Shown: piece by piece, positions 3,371 through 36,865 of the stretch
How the letters are laid out: every line of letters starts with the position of its first letter
Numbering within the stretch: the first letter of the stretch is position 1
From: a virus
Reading direction: 5' to 3' (one strand)
DNA: 36,940 nt
IMG/VR virus record: IMGVR_UViG_3300037087_000031
Span: 1-36,940 of that record
The notes under the pieces: model-generated
Told to the model about the DNA's origin: nothing
What the model saw: the letters and a program-made list of their open reading frames with translations, nothing else
Database searches by the model: none
Program-made: the position numbers and the translations under genes

Positions 3371-3688
3371 TTAATACAGTCGCCCAATCTTCGTTATTTC
3401 TTCAAGCGTACATGATGTTTTGTCAAGTTGAATTATTGATACGGCTTTATCGTAAGCATCTAAGAATGATTCTGAGATTATATAAACCTCGTCCCCACCA
3501 CTTAAAGTTATTCTATAAATATATGAATATTTACCCATTTGTTCCTCCTCGTCTATTTGGTCAAGGTTTACACACAAATCTTTAGCGCGCTTTTTCAGAA
3601 ATTCTATTTCAGCGTACATAGATAGCCAATCTTCTACCCAAATATCTGCTATTCGTGGCGGAATAATAAGCTGGCTATTTGTTGCCAT
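3371..3688 (-). CDS. Hypothetical early protein
   Basis: A 105-residue acidic protein with no membrane segment. It has a charged helical stretch (about residues 24-50) followed by a beta-rich half. The family is not recognised. It belongs to the early operon by orientation and spacing. Confidence 0.6.
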   Translation of the reverse strand: MATNSQLIIPPRIADIWVEDWLSMYAEIEFLKKRAKDLCVNLDQIDEEEQMGKYSYIYRITLSGGDEVYIISESFLDAYDKAVSIIQLDKTSCTLEEITKIGRLY

Positions 3689-3749: not shown

Positions 3750-4745
3750 TTATACCATTTTCTTGTACATACCCCAAGGGGTTGTATCTGTTAGCATGTA
3801 AGGAAATCCATCTCTAACTATTACTGCCCCGTGCTTATGTGGATTAGAAACCTGCCTTGACCTTTGGGCTTCGTATGCAAATAGCTTTTCATCTGCGCAC
3901 ATTCCCATGTGCCAAGCGTAGAATCTTCCAGATATATCATACTGTTGGTTTACAACGTGAGAATGAGCCATAAGGATATTACATAAGTGCATGGATGCAA
4001 GTTTCACGGCAGTGTTAGCAGAAAATGGTTTAGGGTGTTCTATCCTGAACTCTTTACCACCACTTGTTAGATGACAATAATAATATGGGGCTATACTCCA
4101 CCTTTCATTATCTACGCCCATTGAACGTAGTATCTCAATAGGGTCTATTGTCTGTTGCAATGTTCGTAATATTCTACCCTCGTGATTACCTAATACCCAT
4201 TGAACTTTGTCAAATACACTATCAAGGGTTTTTAGTAGGATACGGGCTTCTTGCATTTCCTCTGAATAGGTTATCTGCTTTTCTTCATCACTCATTTCCA
4301 TTAGAACATTCATACCTTCTTCTTGATACTTGCTCGGCAACCCTTGAATGAAGTCCATCAAGTTCTTCTCATTGTTGTCTGATAATCCTTTATCATCAGT
4401 TGCGAAATTCGCATCAAAACCTGTCAATGTTTCATTATGTAGAAAGTCACCTGCCAGTATCAAGTTCTTTATTCCCCACACATTAGCTAAATCTAATACA
4501 CGATTCAGAAAATCAAAGTCGTGGAATGGAGCTTCTACACAAGGCAGTACAAGCCAATCACCCTCTAATCTGGGCGGATCATCGTATCTTACAAACGGAC
4601 TTTCCTTGACATAGTTTTTGCCATCATAATATATTGTGGCAAGTGATCCCATTGGAATATTGGTTATCTTATGTATCTCTACAAAAGGTAGTCCCTTCTT
4701 GCGAAGGGACACAACCTTATCTCTAATCTCTTGGGGATATTTCAT
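3750..4745 (-). CDS. Metallophosphoesterase with N-terminal helix-turn-helix
   Basis: A 331-residue calcineurin-like phosphoesterase. Seen: GDFLHN (GD at 99-100), GNHEG (186-190) and AHSH (His261, His263), the metal-binding motifs II, III and V of the family. The usual first DxH motif is not canonical; EAPFHD near 71-76 stands in its place. Residues 1-40 look like a resolvase or transposase-type helix-turn-helix (KGLPFVEIHKITNIP), so the enzyme may be directed to DNA. Such phage enzymes act as phosphatases or nucleases; the substrate is unknown. A perfect copy of the dispersed palindrome lies inside at 4401-4413. The start codon abuts the stop of the gene at 4745. Confidence 0.85.
   Translation of the reverse strand: MKYPQEIRDKVVSLRKKGLPFVEIHKITNIPMGSLATIYYDGKNYVKESPFVRYDDPPRLEGDWLVLPCVEAPFHDFDFLNRVLDLANVWGIKNLILAGDFLHNETLTGFDANFATDDKGLSDNNEKNLMDFIQGLPSKYQEEGMNVLMEMSDEEKQITYSEEMQEARILLKTLDSVFDKVQWVLGNHEGRILRTLQQTIDPIEILRSMGVDNERWSIAPYYYCHLTSGGKEFRIEHPKPFSANTAVKLASMHLCNILMAHSHVVNQQYDISGRFYAWHMGMCADEKLFAYEAQRSRQVSNPHKHGAVIVRDGFPYMLTDTTPWGMYKKMV
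4401..4413. repeat. Dispersed palindrome, perfect copy
   Basis: TGCGAAATTCGCA: 6-bp arms around one base. This is one of nine perfect copies in the genome (others at 10275, 10352, 11100, 11938, 14276, 20316, 29871 and 36138). The chance expectation for the 12 fixed positions is far below one per genome. It is read as Ala-Asn-Phe-Ala in the phosphoesterase. Confidence 0.9.
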
Positions 4746-5515
4746 TATAACTTCCTCAACTCTTCTGCGGTGATTTCATAAATAACTTTAGCTTTCTTTC
4801 CATTATGTAATCTCCATGTAGTGCCATCAAAGCTTGGCACAATGCCACTTTCCCATAATTTTGTAGCAGAAATAAAATCATATTCATATTTGATGTTAAA
4901 GAATGAGCTTGTATATGCCCAGACCAAATCCACGACCGAAGCCCTGACCGAAGCCCAGACCGGATACCTGACCATATACCAGACCGAAGCCCTGATCGGA
5001 TCCCAGACCGGATCCCTGACCGAATCCCAGACCGAAGCCCCGACCGAATCCCTGACCGAATCCCAGACCGGATACCTGACCAAATCCCAGACCGGATCCC
5101 TGACCGAAGCCCAGACCGAAGCCCTGACCGAAGCCCTGACCGAAGCCCACTGTTTTAATAAGACAATCCGCTCATCAGTTACTTTCTTTACTTTTGAAAG
5201 TTCAAACGGGTTGATAATGGGTTTAATAATCAATGGCTCAATTATCTTTTTAAAGTCTAACTCACTAACCCATTTTTCCGCTTGAACAGAGTCGTTTATA
5301 TCACTTCTAATATTGTCAACTGTAAAATGTTTAATCAGTGGATTGTATTCGTAACCATTAACTTTTTCTGGATTAAGTTTGTAAAAGTCAGTAATGTGGT
5401 CATGTGAATCAACACCATCATCTTTCAGATGTTTTTTGCGATAATCCCAATCAAAGTAAAAACGTGTACCGCCATAATTTTCTGGGTCAGTTACAAAGCT
5501 AAAGAATTTGCACAT
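4745..5515 (-). CDS. Protein with tetrapeptide [A/D][S/P]V[R/W] repeats
   Basis: A 256-residue protein. Residues 1-120 are non-repetitive. Residues about 123-200 consist of four-residue units ending alternately in Val-Arg and Val-Trp (ASVR, ASVW, DPVW and similar). A non-repetitive C-terminus of about 50 residues follows. The repeat would give a regular amphipathic structure with stacked Trp and Arg. Similar SV(R/W) runs occur in uncharacterised phage and bacterial proteins; no function is established to my knowledge. An AAGGAGG ribosome site lies before the ATG, and the last bases overlap the phosphoesterase start. Confidence 0.75.
   Translation of the reverse strand: MCKFFSFVTDPENYGGTRFYFDWDYRKKHLKDDGVDSHDHITDFYKLNPEKVNGYEYNPLIKHFTVDNIRSDINDSVQAEKWVSELDFKKIIEPLIIKPIINPFELSKVKKVTDERIVLLKQWASVRASVRASVWASVRDPVWDLVRYPVWDSVRDSVGASVWDSVRDPVWDPIRASVWYMVRYPVWASVRASVVDLVWAYTSSFFNIKYEYDFISATKLWESGIVPSFDGTTWRLHNGKKAKVIYEITAEELRKL
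4919..5152. repeat. 12-bp tandem coding repeat
   Basis: About 19-20 diverged copies of a 12-base unit of the form GACCGAAGCCCT on the plus strand (variants GACCGGATCCCT, GACCATATACCA). They encode the tetrapeptide repeats on the minus strand. The period leaves all reading frames open, which creates false long frames on both strands. The array is liable to expand or contract by slippage. Confidence 0.9.
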
Positions 5516-6321: not shown

Positions 6322-6350
6322 ATCATAGTACCTTTTGTGGCATTTGTCAA
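6322..6350 (-). promoter_or_regulatory. Consensus sigma-70-type promoter
   Basis: On the minus strand TTGACA (6350-6345), a 17-base spacer, and TATGAT (6327-6322). Transcription would start near 6315, about 22 bases before the ATG of the small regulator. It drives the left half of the early arm (6293 to 2477). Confidence 0.85.
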
Positions 6351-6700
6351 TCCCTTTTAGATAATTGGCTATTATTATAAGAAAAATGATAATAATTCAT
6401 ATTTCAATATTTTTTGCCTGATAATTATATCCATCAATATTTCTATAATAAATCGAAAAATCGGCATGTTTTCAGGCGTAAAAATTGATACCAATGTATC
6501 ATTGCCGTCCCACAAATGATATTGTGAGGCAGTCAAGTATCATTTAAGGGTCTCAAATAGACAAAACTTGTACTGGATCCTGAACGCAGGTGCTTTTATT
6601 GATTACTAAATAAGCAGGGATAATACCTCCGATGAGGTATTAAGTACATACAAAAGATATGTATAAATCATGCGTGTAAAATGTTACCTTTTAATTGACA
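6351..6700. other. Structured AT-rich intergenic stretch, no gene
   Basis: No convincing gene on either strand. It holds several perfect hairpins: TGATAC-CAAT-GTATCA (6486-6501), CACAA...TTGTG (6512-6527), a 9-bp stem TAATACCTC with tetraloop CGAT (6621-6642), and TACATA...TATGTA just after. These could be operators, part of an RNA, or replication structures. Confidence 0.5.
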
Positions 6701-6708
6701 TTCTACTC

Positions 6709-6930
6709 ACAAAACAAAGCCACCTGGTTCTTTAGTCTCTCGACTAAAGGGGTTGCAGGTGGCTTGTCGATAGCCTCCGGTCGTCTTATTGCTCTAAAAG
6801 CACGCAAACCATCATCGGCCATCCAGCGGGCATTAAGCCCTTGCCGTTATTCGTACTATCACGTCGAACGTGATTTCGGAATCGGCCAAGCAGGTTCTAC
6901 ATCCGCCACTAAAGACGGGTTCGAACCTGC
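6709..6930 (-). ncRNA. Candidate stand-alone structured RNA, about 220 nt
   Basis: A perfect TATAAT on the minus strand (6942-6937) sets a start near 6930. The RNA begins with an 8-bp stem GCAGGTTC (6930-6923) with GAACCTGC (6897-6890). It continues with a hairpin ATCACG/CGTGAT (6874-6858) and a GGGC/GCCC hairpin near 6840-6828, and ends in a two-part terminator stem with a GAGA tetraloop. No start codon with a ribosome site and no long frame on this strand. It lies between two early genes read in the same direction. It matches no RNA family I recognise; tmRNA, 6S and RNase P hallmarks are absent. Confidence 0.6.
6711..6765 (-). terminator. Rho-independent terminator of the RNA
   Basis: A 10-bp stem AAGCCACCTG (6765-6756) with CAGGTGGCTT (6726-6717) encloses an 8-bp stem CTTTAGTC-GAGA-GACTAAAG (6749-6730). 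TGTTTT follows on the minus strand. Confidence 0.75.
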
Positions 6931-6936
6931 ATAACT

Positions 6937-6965
6937 ATTATAACCTATTTTCACGGTTTCAAAAC
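6937..6965 (-). promoter_or_regulatory. Promoter of the candidate RNA
   Basis: A consensus TATAAT at 6942-6937. The best -35 is a weak TTTTGA-like hexamer 16 bases upstream, inside the 3' end of the gene that stops at 6951. Confidence 0.55.
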
Positions 6966-7589
6966 ATACCCATTAAGCAATGTATCTGCTAATTGCTCAA
7001 TCGGTTCAGGTTGCAGAATTGCATTATCTATCTGTGAATTGTGAACGGCTATGATTGATGCTGATTGCAGGCACATGGCTTTTAATTGGGCAGTACTGGA
7101 TACAATAGTAGTGCCTGTTGTTGGCGTAGGTTCAGTTGGTGTTGTGGTTGCCTGCGGAACAGGACATGGCACACAATACTGATTCAGATTATCGCCATTC
7201 CACGCTGTATAGACTGTCTTGTCAGGCTCAATGATAAAGCCTATCATGTCCCAGCCTTCGGGCATTTTGATTGTGCTTAAATCAGTTACCTTTTCGGTTA
7301 GGTAAAGCGCAAGGAATGATTTAGAGATGATCGCCTGACACAACTTTTTACCTGCATCGCTCATTTCGTAGAGTTTATTCCAATTCGCCCCAACTACTCC
7401 AATGCAACAGAATCGAGTAGCAACGCCAATAGATTCATTCATGGCATCTACACCCTTATTCAGCTTGTCGGGGTCGTTACCAAAATTCTGTGGAAATACC
7501 TGATTGAGCTTCCATGCCATACCTAAACCATCGTCTACGTAAATATCATTGTTCACCAACTTACCTGAATACTTATATATACTACTCAT
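6951..7589 (-). CDS. Hypothetical protein with Pro/Thr linker
   Basis: A 212-residue protein. Residues 1-140 look like a folded domain, and a Pro/Thr-rich linker (about 143-160) joins a helical C-terminal part of about 50 residues. No catalytic motif and no membrane segment. The ATG overlaps the stop region of the gene at 7582. Family not recognised; its place before the RNA gene and after the nuclease cluster gives no firm clue. Confidence 0.65.
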   Translation of the reverse strand: MSSIYKYSGKLVNNDIYVDDGLGMAWKLNQVFPQNFGNDPDKLNKGVDAMNESIGVATRFCCIGVVGANWNKLYEMSDAGKKLCQAIISKSFLALYLTEKVTDLSTIKMPEGWDMIGFIIEPDKTVYTAWNGDNLNQYCVPCPVPQATTTPTEPTPTTGTTIVSSTAQLKAMCLQSASIIAVHNSQIDNAILQPEPIEQLADTLLNGYVLKP

Positions 7590-11783: not shown

Positions 11784-11968
11784 TCTTTACTCCTATAAAC
11801 AAATACACCCTTTGATGGGCTCACCTGCGCTGGAGAGTACACTCGGCTAAGTGTTACAGGTAAGCCCACTAAAAGGTGCTTGTAAATTAAAATTAGCCGA
11901 TACATATACTCTCCATAATCACAATTATACCACTTAATGCGAAATTCGCAATTAACGTTCATGCACAT
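11780..11968 (-). CDS. Doubtful small ORF over a structured element
   Basis: A 62-residue frame that overlaps both neighbours (ATGA with the replisome gene). Its second half is read from a strong inverted-repeat structure and looks unlike a normal protein. It could be a leader peptide, or the frame may be fortuitous. Confidence 0.3.
   Translation of the reverse strand: MCMNVNCEFRIKWYNCDYGEYMYRLILIYKHLLVGLPVTLSRVYSPAQVSPSKGVFVYRSKE
11816..11868 (-). promoter_or_regulatory. Cis-acting RNA structure before the replisome gene
   Basis: Nested stems: TGGGCT/AGCCCA (11816-11821 with 11863-11868), ACCTG/CAGGT (11823-11827 with 11857-11861), and an inner ACACT/AGTGT hairpin (11839-11843 with 11850-11854). 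It ends about 33 bases before the ATG at 11783, a fitting place for translational or transcriptional control. Confidence 0.5.
11938..11950. repeat. Dispersed palindrome, perfect copy
   Basis: TGCGAAATTCGCA just downstream of the HNH-like gene, read as Cys-Glu-Phe-Arg in the doubtful frame. Confidence 0.9.
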
Positions 11969-16155: not shown

Positions 16156-16198
16156 TCAGAACGTATGTGTTATGCCGACCATTCTATCCCTCCGCAGA

Positions 16199-21079: not shown

Positions 21080-22095
21080 GAAATATATGCCCGGTTTGTG
21101 GTAATGGTGCAGTAGATGACTATGAGATGGACTTTGAAGTCCCTGATAGATGGCCGTTACCTAAAGAGAACTGGTGGAATCTATGCCGATGTGGTTTTGT
21201 CTGGTTATGCAATAATGCCACAGAAGATAACTATAACGAATATTACAAGAAATTCTACGTTGGAGCAACTTACCATAGCGATAGTCCACACCTTGAAAGG
21301 CTAAAAGCATTAGCACAGTTTATAAGTTATAGGTTTCCAAGAAACACCTCTATCATTGATTATGGTGGTGGGCTTGGTCAGTTAGGAATATATCTAAGAG
21401 ATTATGGTTTCAATAACTATTCTGTATGTGATGTAGGTCAGCAACTAAGAACATGTGATCTGATAGTAGCATCCCACGTTATCGAACATATCTACAATCT
21501 AAACGCCATGATGATGCAGTTTAGAACATGGACAGACCAAGTGTTAGTAGAACTTCCCGAATCATTAGGATATTCTTACAAGACATTTCCGCCTTTACTT
21601 GATTATCAGACACAGCACATTAATCACTTTGGCATAAGCCAGTTAGATATGTTGTTCTCTAATTATGACTTTTCATGCGAGTATCGGGAATCATTAGAAT
21701 TTCATATGCTAAATATGCCTACTTATCGGGCAATTTATAAAAACAATGGTCATCATAATATGTTTGACAGGATAAAACATTCAATAGATACATCAAAGAT
21801 AACCCTTGAAGAAAAGATGATACCCATTAGACAGTTGTATGGTGGTGTACCGTTTATCATTTATGGACTTGGTGATTACGCCATGTGGTTTTTAGCAACA
21901 GTGAAAAATCTACCGTCTATTGCAGGCTTTGTAGATAAGAATCCAATCTATAAAGGCATGACATTAATGGGTATGCCTATCCTTGACCACGTTGAAGGCG
22001 ACTACCCGATACTGGTTATTGCAAGGGGTAAACAGCAAGATATAGTTGATGATATAAAAAGTCTTGGAATAAAGAATAGGGTAATCGTTCTGTGA
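21076..22095 (+). CDS. C-methyltransferase, NovU/TylC3-like
   Basis: A 339-residue three-part protein. N-terminal zinc-binding part CPVCG...CRCGF (Cys5, Cys8, Cys37, Cys39); a SAM-binding Rossmann domain with IIDYGGGLG (93-101) and the SHVIEHI segment (about 128-134); a C-terminal Rossmann-like domain (about 253-339) with FIIYGLGDYA and GFVDKNP. This architecture belongs to sugar C-methyltransferases (NovU, TylC3), which methylate NDP-4-keto sugars. The SAM domain is shorter than usual. TTG start overlapping the previous stop. Confidence 0.78.
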   Translation: MRNICPVCGNGAVDDYEMDFEVPDRWPLPKENWWNLCRCGFVWLCNNATEDNYNEYYKKFYVGATYHSDSPHLERLKALAQFISYRFPRNTSIIDYGGGLGQLGIYLRDYGFNNYSVCDVGQQLRTCDLIVASHVIEHIYNLNAMMMQFRTWTDQVLVELPESLGYSYKTFPPLLDYQTQHINHFGISQLDMLFSNYDFSCEYRESLEFHMLNMPTYRAIYKNNGHHNMFDRIKHSIDTSKITLEEKMIPIRQLYGGVPFIIYGLGDYAMWFLATVKNLPSIAGFVDKNPIYKGMTLMGMPILDHVEGDYPILVIARGKQQDIVDDIKSLGIKNRVIVL

Positions 22096-22610
22096 TCCTC
22101 AGCGACTGGATATTCAAATATTTAGAGGAACAAGGTGTGCATCACGTTTTCACTCTTTGCGGTGGATTCTCGATGTACCTTAATAACAGTCTTGCCAACT
22201 CCAAAATAATGCCAGTCTATCTTTTGCATGAACAAAGTTGTGCATTTGCAGCAGAAGCGTACTCACAATTAACTGGACTTGGTGTTTGTCTTGTAACATC
22301 AGGGCCAGGTGCAACAAATGCGGTTACGGGTTGTGCGGCGGCATGGAATAACTACTCGCCTGTCCTGTTTATTTCAGGTCAGGTAAAGACCAACGATCTG
22401 AAACAATGGGGACAAAGATTCAACGGGGCGCAGGAAGTGGATATTATCTCAATGGTAAAACACATCACGAAGTATGCCGAGATGATAACAAAACCTGCTA
22501 TGGCAAAAGCTATGGTTGTAAGGGCTATAAGTGAAGCTACACACGGGGAGAAAGCCCCAGTATGGTTAGACATCCCTTTAAACATACAAAGTGCAGAAAT
22601 CCCTCTATGA
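22092..22610 (+). CDS. Thiamine-diphosphate enzyme, Pyr-domain chain
   Basis: A 172-residue protein that equals the N-terminal Pyr domain of acetolactate-synthase-like enzymes. Seen: VFTLCGGFSMYL, HEQSCAFAAEAYSQLTG (catalytic Glu47), CLVTSGPGATNAVTG and the SPVLFISGQV segment, all conserved. It ends after the domain at DIPLNIQ, where full enzymes continue into the M domain. GTG start overlapping the methyltransferase stop. With the PP chain it should make a heterodimeric enzyme with active sites at the interface, as in sulfopyruvate decarboxylase ComDE. Substrate unknown. Confidence 0.85.
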   Translation: MILSDWIFKYLEEQGVHHVFTLCGGFSMYLNNSLANSKIMPVYLLHEQSCAFAAEAYSQLTGLGVCLVTSGPGATNAVTGCAAAWNNYSPVLFISGQVKTNDLKQWGQRFNGAQEVDIISMVKHITKYAEMITKPAMAKAMVVRAISEATHGEKAPVWLDIPLNIQSAEIPL

Positions 22611-23221
22611 TTGATTTGTACGCACTAAATCAAAAGCTGAATCAACTTTCTACGCCAAATGACGTATTATGCCCTTCTGCTGCTGGATTTCAAGGAAACA
22701 TAGTATGGCAGGAATGGAAAGCCAAAGGTGATGTTATCAATAGAATCAATCTTGGGCAGATGGGATTCGGACTACCTTCTGCAATCGGGGCTTATTACGC
22801 CACTGGTAAAAGGGTTATTCTATTAGAAGGTGATGGTGGTTTTCAGTTGAATATGCGTGAACTGCAAATAGTATCGCAACACAACCTGCCCATCTGCATA
22901 TTTATAATCAATAACGATGGGTATGCGTCAATCAGGAACACACAGAATAAGTATTTTGGCAAGTTGAATGGGGCAGATAGTTCAAGTGGAATGACCCTAC
23001 CCAATTTAGAGAATATAGCAAAATGTTATTACTTGCCTTATTGGAAGTTATATGATTTACAGTATTTTGATGAGATGTTTGAATTAGAACCACCTTATAT
23101 TTGTGAAGTGTTTGCTAACCCAAATCAACAGTACAAGTACAAGGCGAATTATCGTTTAGAGAATGGAGTAGTCCAAGTACAACCCGTTACAAAGGAAAAT
23201 AAACTATGTCCAACGAAATGA
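22607..23221 (+). CDS. Thiamine-diphosphate enzyme, PP-domain chain
   Basis: A 204-residue protein starting MIDLYALNQK at an ATGA overlap with the Pyr chain. Seen: GQMGFGLPSAIGAYYA and the cofactor motif GDGG (75-78) followed 24 residues later by NN (102-103), then DGYASIRNTQ. These are the signatures of the diphosphate-binding domain. DGYASIRNTQ is typical of acetolactate-synthase-like proteins in surface-polysaccharide clusters. The M domain of about 130 residues, which sits between Pyr and PP in those proteins, is missing. The two chains together reach 376 residues, compared with about 560 in acetolactate synthase. Confidence 0.85.
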   Translation: MIDLYALNQKLNQLSTPNDVLCPSAAGFQGNIVWQEWKAKGDVINRINLGQMGFGLPSAIGAYYATGKRVILLEGDGGFQLNMRELQIVSQHNLPICIFIINNDGYASIRNTQNKYFGKLNGADSSSGMTLPNLENIAKCYYLPYWKLYDLQYFDEMFELEPPYICEVFANPNQQYKYKANYRLENGVVQVQPVTKENKLCPTK

Positions 23222-25075: not shown

Positions 25076-25082
25076 AATTATG

Positions 25083-25091
25083 TGGTATAAT
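25083..25091 (+). promoter_or_regulatory. Extended -10 promoter before the capsid leader
   Basis: TGGTATAAT; the surrounding TGTGGTATAATAT is identical to the late promoter at 16221-16233. Predicted start near 25098. Confidence 0.6.
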
Positions 25092-25286
25092 ATGTATTGT
25101 ATCTCTCCTCTTGTATTGACAAGATAGCTCGATACCCGCTACTTATAATCTGCATGAGGCACAAGAAGTGTGGCGATCTGAATAAGTAACGGTAATATAC
25201 CGGTAGCCAGTTGGGTAAACTGGGTTTGGTACAAGGGATTTCATAGTCGTAAACGTGAACTCATCACCTACTGGCCAAAAATGGCC

Positions 25287-25299
25287 TGCAAAATTTGCA
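25287..25299. repeat. Symmetric variant of the dispersed palindrome
   Basis: TGCAAAATTTGCA differs from the standard TGCGAAATTCGCA at two positions that are mirror images, so the symmetry is kept. Confidence 0.55.
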
Positions 25300-25319
25300 G
25301 ATACAGGAAGTCTTTCGAG

Positions 25320-25349
25320 AACTCCGCTTAAGAACAGCGGAGTTTTTGT
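25320..25349 (+). terminator. Terminator/attenuator just upstream of the capsid gene
   Basis: A 9-bp stem AACTCCGCT/AGCGGAGTT with a 7-base loop, followed by TTTGTTTG. It lies 20 bases before the capsid start, and the ribosome site (TTGGAGG) is just beyond. Confidence 0.82.
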
Positions 25350-25368
25350 TTGTTAACTTGGAGGCACT

Positions 25369-36129: not shown

Positions 36130-36137
36130 TGTAAGTT

Positions 36138-36150
36138 TGCGAAATTCGCA
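36138..36150. repeat. Dispersed palindrome, intergenic copy
   Basis: TGCGAAATTCGCA, the only perfect copy outside any gene. It lies 8 bases after a stop codon and 20 bases before a terminator. Confidence 0.92.
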
Positions 36151-36169
36151 AATCAGGCAGTTCGTTCAG

Positions 36170-36199
36170 AAACGCCTCTCTAACCAAGAGGCGTTTTTT
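36170..36199 (+). terminator. Rho-independent terminator in the tail-tip region
   Basis: A 9-bp stem AAACGCCTC/GAGGCGTTT with a 9-base loop and a following T-run. The next gene starts 19 bases later, so it is likely a partial terminator that lowers downstream expression. Confidence 0.85.
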
Positions 36200-36217
36200 A
36201 TTATATAGAGGTAATTT

Positions 36218-36865
36218 ATGTCCTACCCAGCAAGTTTAGATTCGTTCAGCGCCCGTACCGACAATTCCGATACCGTAATGGCGGCGGATGTTAACGGCTT
36301 ACAAGTAGCCGTAGTAGCATTAGAAACCCATATTGGCACAACTACTGCGCCAAAAATAATGGCTGGCTGGTTCTATATGATGTCAGGTGGTAATCCGGCA
36401 GTTACCAATGGTTGTACTTCGCCTGCCAATCTGGAACTGCCTACTTATAAAGCTACATTGAAACCACCTGCATTTGATAAAGATACTGAGCAGTATATGG
36501 ATTTTATTCATCCCCTACCAGATGATTACAACGCCGGAACAGTTACAGCGATAGTTTACTGGACACACCCAGCTACGACCACAAACTTCAAGGTAGCGTG
36601 GGCTGTCAAGATGGTGGCGATTGCAGATTCCGCAACGCTTGATGCAGCTTTTGGCATAGCACAACAGACTAATGATACTGGTGGAAACACTAACTATCTT
36701 TATATATCCCCTGCCACTGCTGCTATTACTATTGGCGGTGCACCCGTAGCAGGTAATATGTTAATAGCAAGAGTTTATCGGGTAGCCGCAGACGGTACAA
36801 ATGATACTCTTGCAGTTAATGCTTATCCATTGAATGTCAAAGTTACATATGTAAGGACAGCCTAA
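36218..36865 (+). CDS. Tail fibre/baseplate-like protein
   Basis: A 215-residue protein with N-terminal DSFSARTDNSDTVMAADVNGLQVAVVALE, a pattern widespread in phage tail fibres, where the first helices bind the tail tip and help trimerisation. The rest (about 50-215) is a beta-rich domain. An AGAGG ribosome site precedes the ATG. The product ends in the terminal repeat. Confidence 0.72.
   Translation: MSYPASLDSFSARTDNSDTVMAADVNGLQVAVVALETHIGTTTAPKIMAGWFYMMSGGNPAVTNGCTSPANLELPTYKATLKPPAFDKDTEQYMDFIHPLPDDYNAGTVTAIVYWTHPATTTNFKVAWAVKMVAIADSATLDAAFGIAQQTNDTGGNTNYLYISPATAAITIGGAPVAGNMLIARVYRVAADGTNDTLAVNAYPLNVKVTYVRTA

Follow-up and report, generated by a model that had tools for sequence, protein, structure and literature searches.

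A predicted orphan structured RNA at the end of the leftward operon of an uncultured phage

Introduction

The packaging RNA of phage phi29 is a structured phage RNA. The RNA described here, which lies on the minus strand at 6942-6709 of a 36,940-nucleotide phage genome (the whole stretch of DNA that was analysed, referred to below as the window), is likewise structured and in the same size range (about 170-220 nt), but for packaging the window phage encodes a phrog_2-type terminase large subunit and not a phi29-type packaging motor. The regulatory sRNAs described from phages, including OOP and PreS of lambda, sar of P22, c4 of P1/P7 and VpdS of VP882, are antisense or Hfq-dependent (review PMC12197685). 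With these the window RNA shares the arrangement of a short RNA gene between protein genes, although unlike them it has no antisense partner. Other sRNAs, of which MicX of Vibrio cholerae is an example, are located in 3' UTRs, are expressed from an ORF-internal promoter or one of their own, and act by short seeds (review PMC9438474). The window RNA is similar to this type in its position at an mRNA end, its shared terminator, its probable own start and its length of about 200 nt. It differs in being almost wholly paired, and no target was found for it.

Two further systems can be compared in structure. The AbiF ncRNA RCd22 and the antitoxin RNAs of type III toxin-antitoxin systems (PMC12373285) resemble the window RNA in being structured phage ncRNAs followed by a terminator. 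In contrast to these, the window RNA has no tandem pseudoknot repeats, no neighbour of the Abi_2 or ToxN type and no match in Rfam: the neighbours tested include neither a toxin nor an Abi_2 family member, and the RNA consists of five hairpins in series and not of a repeat array. The put RNA of HK022, also structured and also from the early region of a phage, suppresses termination (PMC9378689), whereas the window RNA is itself closed by the strongest terminator of its genome.

Results

The window comprises a phage genome of 36.9 kb that has a 127-bp direct repeat at its termini. On the leftward arm are genes for a DnaB helicase and an O-like replication initiator, together with many small genes; the rightward arm encodes terminase, portal, capsid and tape measure. 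The closest records in the terminase comparison are 52-60% identical, and one relative (51%) was found in a Caldilineae (Chloroflexota) assembly, which suggests that the phage may have a Chloroflexota host. We also noted, elsewhere in the window, two adjoining plus-strand ORFs at 22092-23221 which on reading look like halves of a thiamine-diphosphate enzyme of the acetolactate-synthase type, with homologues in a relative (G004) and with ORFs nearby that read as glycosyltransferase-like. The gene at 4745-5515 contains a 12-bp tandem repeat array (4894-5181, minus strand) encoding ASVRDSVWDSV-type repeats, and has counterparts in L058, L059 and L062 with arrays of differing length.

The leftward genes are tightly packed as far as 6951, where the last of them, encoding a 212-aa protein (6951-7589, minus strand; stop codon 6953-6951) for which no family match was found, ends 8 nt upstream of a TATAAT hexamer. 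The next transcription unit after 6709 has its own promoter, TTGACA-17-TATGAT (6322-6350, minus strand), an 11/12 match, and a small gene (6293-6108, minus strand) preceded by GGAGG. The terminator at 6709 is therefore an operon boundary. The 6709-6942 RNA begins just past the stop codon that closes the packed leftward operon, and so may also be operon 3' UTR; whatever else it is, it forms at a minimum the 3' UTR of those upstream genes. This arrangement, with the following unit under its own promoter, is as would be expected for the main rival explanation, a mere operon end whose 3' UTR is embellished, in which an unusually strong terminator is accompanied by exonuclease-stalling hairpins, TATAAT occurs by chance and there is no separate RNA. 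We consider this rival somewhat unlikely on the evidence of fold and spacing given below.

Position, strand, fold and terminator strength were all obtained by computation. The elements named in an earlier sequence-only reading of the window (a -10, stems, hairpins and a terminator) are all present, and lie on the minus strand, which that reading had not given. The 5' end of the RNA is presumed to be at about 6930, at the start of hairpin P1 (6930-6890; -20.8 kcal/mol). The 8-bp closing stem of P1, in which GCAGGUUC (6930-6923) pairs with GAACCUGC (6897-6890), is followed by an internal loop, GAAC/AUGUA, and an inner stem. Three hairpins occupy the middle of the RNA: P2 (6887-6843), in which GCCGAUUC/GAAUaaCGGC and AUCACGU/ACGUGAU flank the internal loop CGAA/AGUAC; P3 (6840-6828), a small hairpin GGGC-UUAAU-GCCC; and P4 (6824-6768), a long irregular hairpin GAUGGCC...GGCUAUC (-21.5 kcal/mol). 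The terminator hairpin P5 (6765-6717; -26.0 kcal/mol) has the two-storey form AAGCCACCUG..CUUUAGUC-GAGA-GACUAAAG..CAGGUGGCUU, with a 10-bp base, an 8-bp top and a GAGA loop, and runs into the U-rich tail UGUUUUGU (6716-6709), the predicted transcript end. Unpaired nucleotides are found in five runs of 5-6 nt (UUUAGU, AUGUA, AGUAC, UUAAU and CAACCC), and nearly all of the remainder is paired. In the internal loop of P2 CGAA faces AGUAC, and in that of P1 GAA faces GUA. The bulged-G (loop E) motif has the consensus GAA/AGUA, and the P2 loop is a putative match to an internal loop of this kind.

The locus had been described as having no reading frame, which is nearly right, in that two open frames cross it: a 79-codon TTG frame (plus strand, 6695-6934) and a 39-codon ATG frame (minus strand, 6822-6703). 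As both are open, either could in principle be a small protein gene in which the stems are incidental. However, neither frame has a Pfam match or, by eye, a ribosome-binding site, and both cross the terminator, and this is the least probable of the explanations that we considered.

The transcript with its terminator (6940-6700) has a minimum free energy z of -6.4 against dinucleotide-shuffled controls, and its centroid structure is identical to the minimum free energy structure. When 640 segments of 230 nt were scanned over the whole genome, the locus was within the top four by significance, but three other segments, coding regions included, had a similar z, so that a high z alone is not unique to this locus. 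The terminator is the best hairpin with a U-tail in the whole genome, at -25.4 kcal/mol compared with -17.6 kcal/mol for the runner-up, and the 6709 region is very probably a transcript 3' end. The Rho-independent terminator looked for in an independent sRNA gene is thus present. Together with the z values, this supports the claim of a structured RNA with a strong terminator of its own. The GC content of the locus, 0.51, exceeds that of its flanks (0.30 and 0.42), which also speaks for an RNA gene. The biggest part of the fold significance comes from the terminator (P5 alone, z -7.9), as would be expected of a plain operon end, but the body without the terminator still has a z of -4.6 and P1 alone one of -4.9 (P4, -3.5; P2, only -1.8), and these 170 nt of extra structure are not needed by a terminator.

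On the complementary strand the body reaches a z of only -2.9, and there is no U-run. This argues against an element acting at the DNA level, such as a replication or packaging site whose inverted repeats form DNA hairpins, although the large intergenic gap and the AT-rich neighbouring sequence (GC 0.30) would suit one. The GC-skew extremes of the genome are at 16193 and 2458, away from the locus, and for this reason a replication origin was dropped from consideration; a DNA-level element in general is highly improbable.

The hexamer TATAAT (6942-6937, minus strand) is a perfect match to the -10 consensus and ends 6 nt upstream of the first stem. The best -35 candidate is poor (TTTTGA, 6964-6959; 16-nt spacer, 3/6), and TATAAT occurs in the genome at chance frequency (60 observed, 52.8 expected), such that the -10 counts as evidence by position only; both facts would also fit a plain operon end. 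The position is nevertheless exactly one start-site distance ahead of the first stem, with a probability of about 0.016 of finding TATAAT at the right place in a shuffled upstream region, and the corresponding distance is 4-14 nt in further cassettes of promoter, RNA and terminator that the window phage and its relatives carry. As there is no -35, and as the last gene of a packed operon stops 8 nt ahead of the -10, the description of the RNA as stand-alone is plausible but weaker than was first proposed, and we infer by a slight preference that the RNA has its own promoter.

The 5' domain of the RNA resembles its terminator domain, the two having AACCC..CUUUAGU..AGAACC in common (p about 0.0015 against mononucleotide shuffles), a likeness that would in principle allow invasion of the terminator by the 5' end. 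Two alternative stems made up entirely of Watson-Crick pairs can be drawn, between UGCAGGU (3-9) and ACCUGCA (174-180) and between UCUUUAGU (19-26) and ACUAAAGA (198-205), and other cassettes of this phage group lie 14-22 nt ahead of start codons. These features would be consistent with an RNA that acts as leader or attenuator towards the genes that follow (6293-3371), and in which the 5' half opens the terminator in response to some signal. Set against this, P1 and P5 together are stronger than the alternative stems (-16.1 and -12.8), P1 folds first, and crossing stems of such size are near chance level in 229 nt. The next gene, moreover, is about 420 nt away behind its own 11/12 promoter. 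An attenuator is therefore improbable, and a switch based on a duplicated terminator was dropped on the same comparison with P1 and P5.

Covariance models of the 4227 families of Rfam 15 gave no match at the gathering threshold, and when matches to E<=10 were considered the best sub-threshold scores (14.7, 13.9 and 9.3 bits) were all attributable to chance. As far as Rfam 15 extends, this bears out the earlier statement that no known class fits, and RNAs of the 6S, tmRNA, OLE, GOLLD and ROOL types were set aside on this basis. A tRNA remnant was also rejected, as GGUUCGAACC is T-arm-like but ARAGORN finds no tRNA. No homologue was found by blastn against phages and plasmids, nor in 57 terminase-related records, in eight scans of IMG/VR, in a 22-mer search of GTDB (0 matches) or in Chloroflexota genomes (about 400 by DNA and 301 by covariance model). 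Three blastn matches (L029, L030 and L051) look like coding DNA and were rejected. Searching IMG/VR by the neighbouring proteins (of the 212-aa gene, DnaB and the 5617-6105 gene) likewise gave no relative. Scans of IMG/VR with RNA motifs (a 17-mer, and the P1 and P2 loop patterns) gave 14 matches that we judged to be chance, none being similar to the window RNA by sequence or by R1, a single-sequence covariance model of that RNA. R1 was itself run on 82 sources and the 301 Chloroflexota genomes and gave four weak matches (L120-L123), all rejected: L121 and L122 are inside ORFs of 404 and 325 codons, L120 is beside a tRNA gene and reaches into an ORF, and L123 is weak, at 16 bits. As the RNA is known from a single sequence, conservation of its structure is not provable.

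A separate RNA architecture was observed in the same phage group. Here a promoter precedes the strands A (B) C (B') A' C', the last of which leads into a U-run, and the whole forms a pseudoknot that has a terminator as its second stem. The example in the window (minus strand, 11917-11806, also delimited as 11806-11930) lies upstream of the gene for the O-like replication initiator, with 22 nt between its end and the start codon. Look-alikes are found on the plus strand at L031:4411-4523, L047:1536-1632 and 2651-2752, L062:793-892 and 3383-3470, and L088:563-674, and on the minus strand at L034:1726-1818 and L035:17027-17112, and several of these leaders lie 14-22 nt before replication-initiator-like or HNH genes. 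A stricter scan gave 8 matches scoring at least 46 compared with 0, 0 and 0 in shuffles, and a looser scan 13 compared with 1-5, and as such only matches with a -10 in place were trusted. Those tested against Rfam (from the window, L031 and L062) had no match, and these leaders are possibly an undescribed attenuator class. The 6709-6942 RNA did not match in the scan and is not of this type, in which the order A C A' C' leads into the U-run.

One copy of the palindrome TTGCGAAATTCGCAA lies next to the -10 of the pseudoknot RNA at 11.9 kb; in all, about 13 copies occur in the window (1015, 4400, 7994, 10274, 10351, 11099, 11937, 12907, 14275, 20315, 29870, 33527 and 36137). With 27 strand matches compared with 1.3 expected, these palindromes look like a dispersed repressor operator or stoperator. 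The copy at 36137 opens a short plus-strand cassette (36137-36205), in which the palindrome is followed by a perfect hairpin and its U-run, with the gene at 36218 beginning about 20 nt further on. Upstream of the major capsid gene, at a distance of 19 nt, is a moderately structured leader of about 270 nt (25080-25356, plus strand; z -2.9), bounded by TGGTATAAT and a terminator.

Discussion

Our analysis indicates that the RNA at the end of the leftward operon is a real, well-delimited structured RNA, and an orphan. We propose, with a probability of roughly 0.5, that it is an orphan phage ncRNA gene embedded in the 3' UTR of that operon. RNA polymerase would start about 6 nt past TATAAT, near 6930, and polymerase reading in from the upstream genes would be a second source of the RNA. 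Transcription by both routes would end at the very strong terminator near 6709, giving a product of roughly 220 nt made up of four body hairpins and the terminator hairpin. As stems close this RNA at both ends, it would probably be stable.

It is somewhat more likely than not, in our judgement, that the RNA has a function beyond termination. The sequence-only reading had suggested the control of early genes or host functions, a suggestion that gained nothing here, as complementarity to phage gene starts is at chance level (best duplex -35.9, shuffled mean -36.5). That nearly all of the RNA is paired, and that no antisense target stands out, favours a structured RNA that binds protein over an antisense seed RNA, and we tentatively suggest a phage or host protein as its partner. 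It is a doubtful further step to see in it an undescribed class of structured RNA in Chloroflexota phages, of 220 nt, with tertiary-type internal loops, binding a phage or host protein and being one of several promoter-RNA-terminator cassettes in these genomes.

Orphan structured RNAs have no matches, and in uncultured phages they seldom attract notice for this reason. The present RNA, being well delimited at its 3' end and located at an operon boundary, is a clean object for testing. A second kind of cassette also occurs in the window phage and its relatives, which suggests wide use of structured RNA in this phage group. Were the 6709-6942 RNA to be transcribed independently, the repertoire of phages would gain an RNA that is structural and not antisense.
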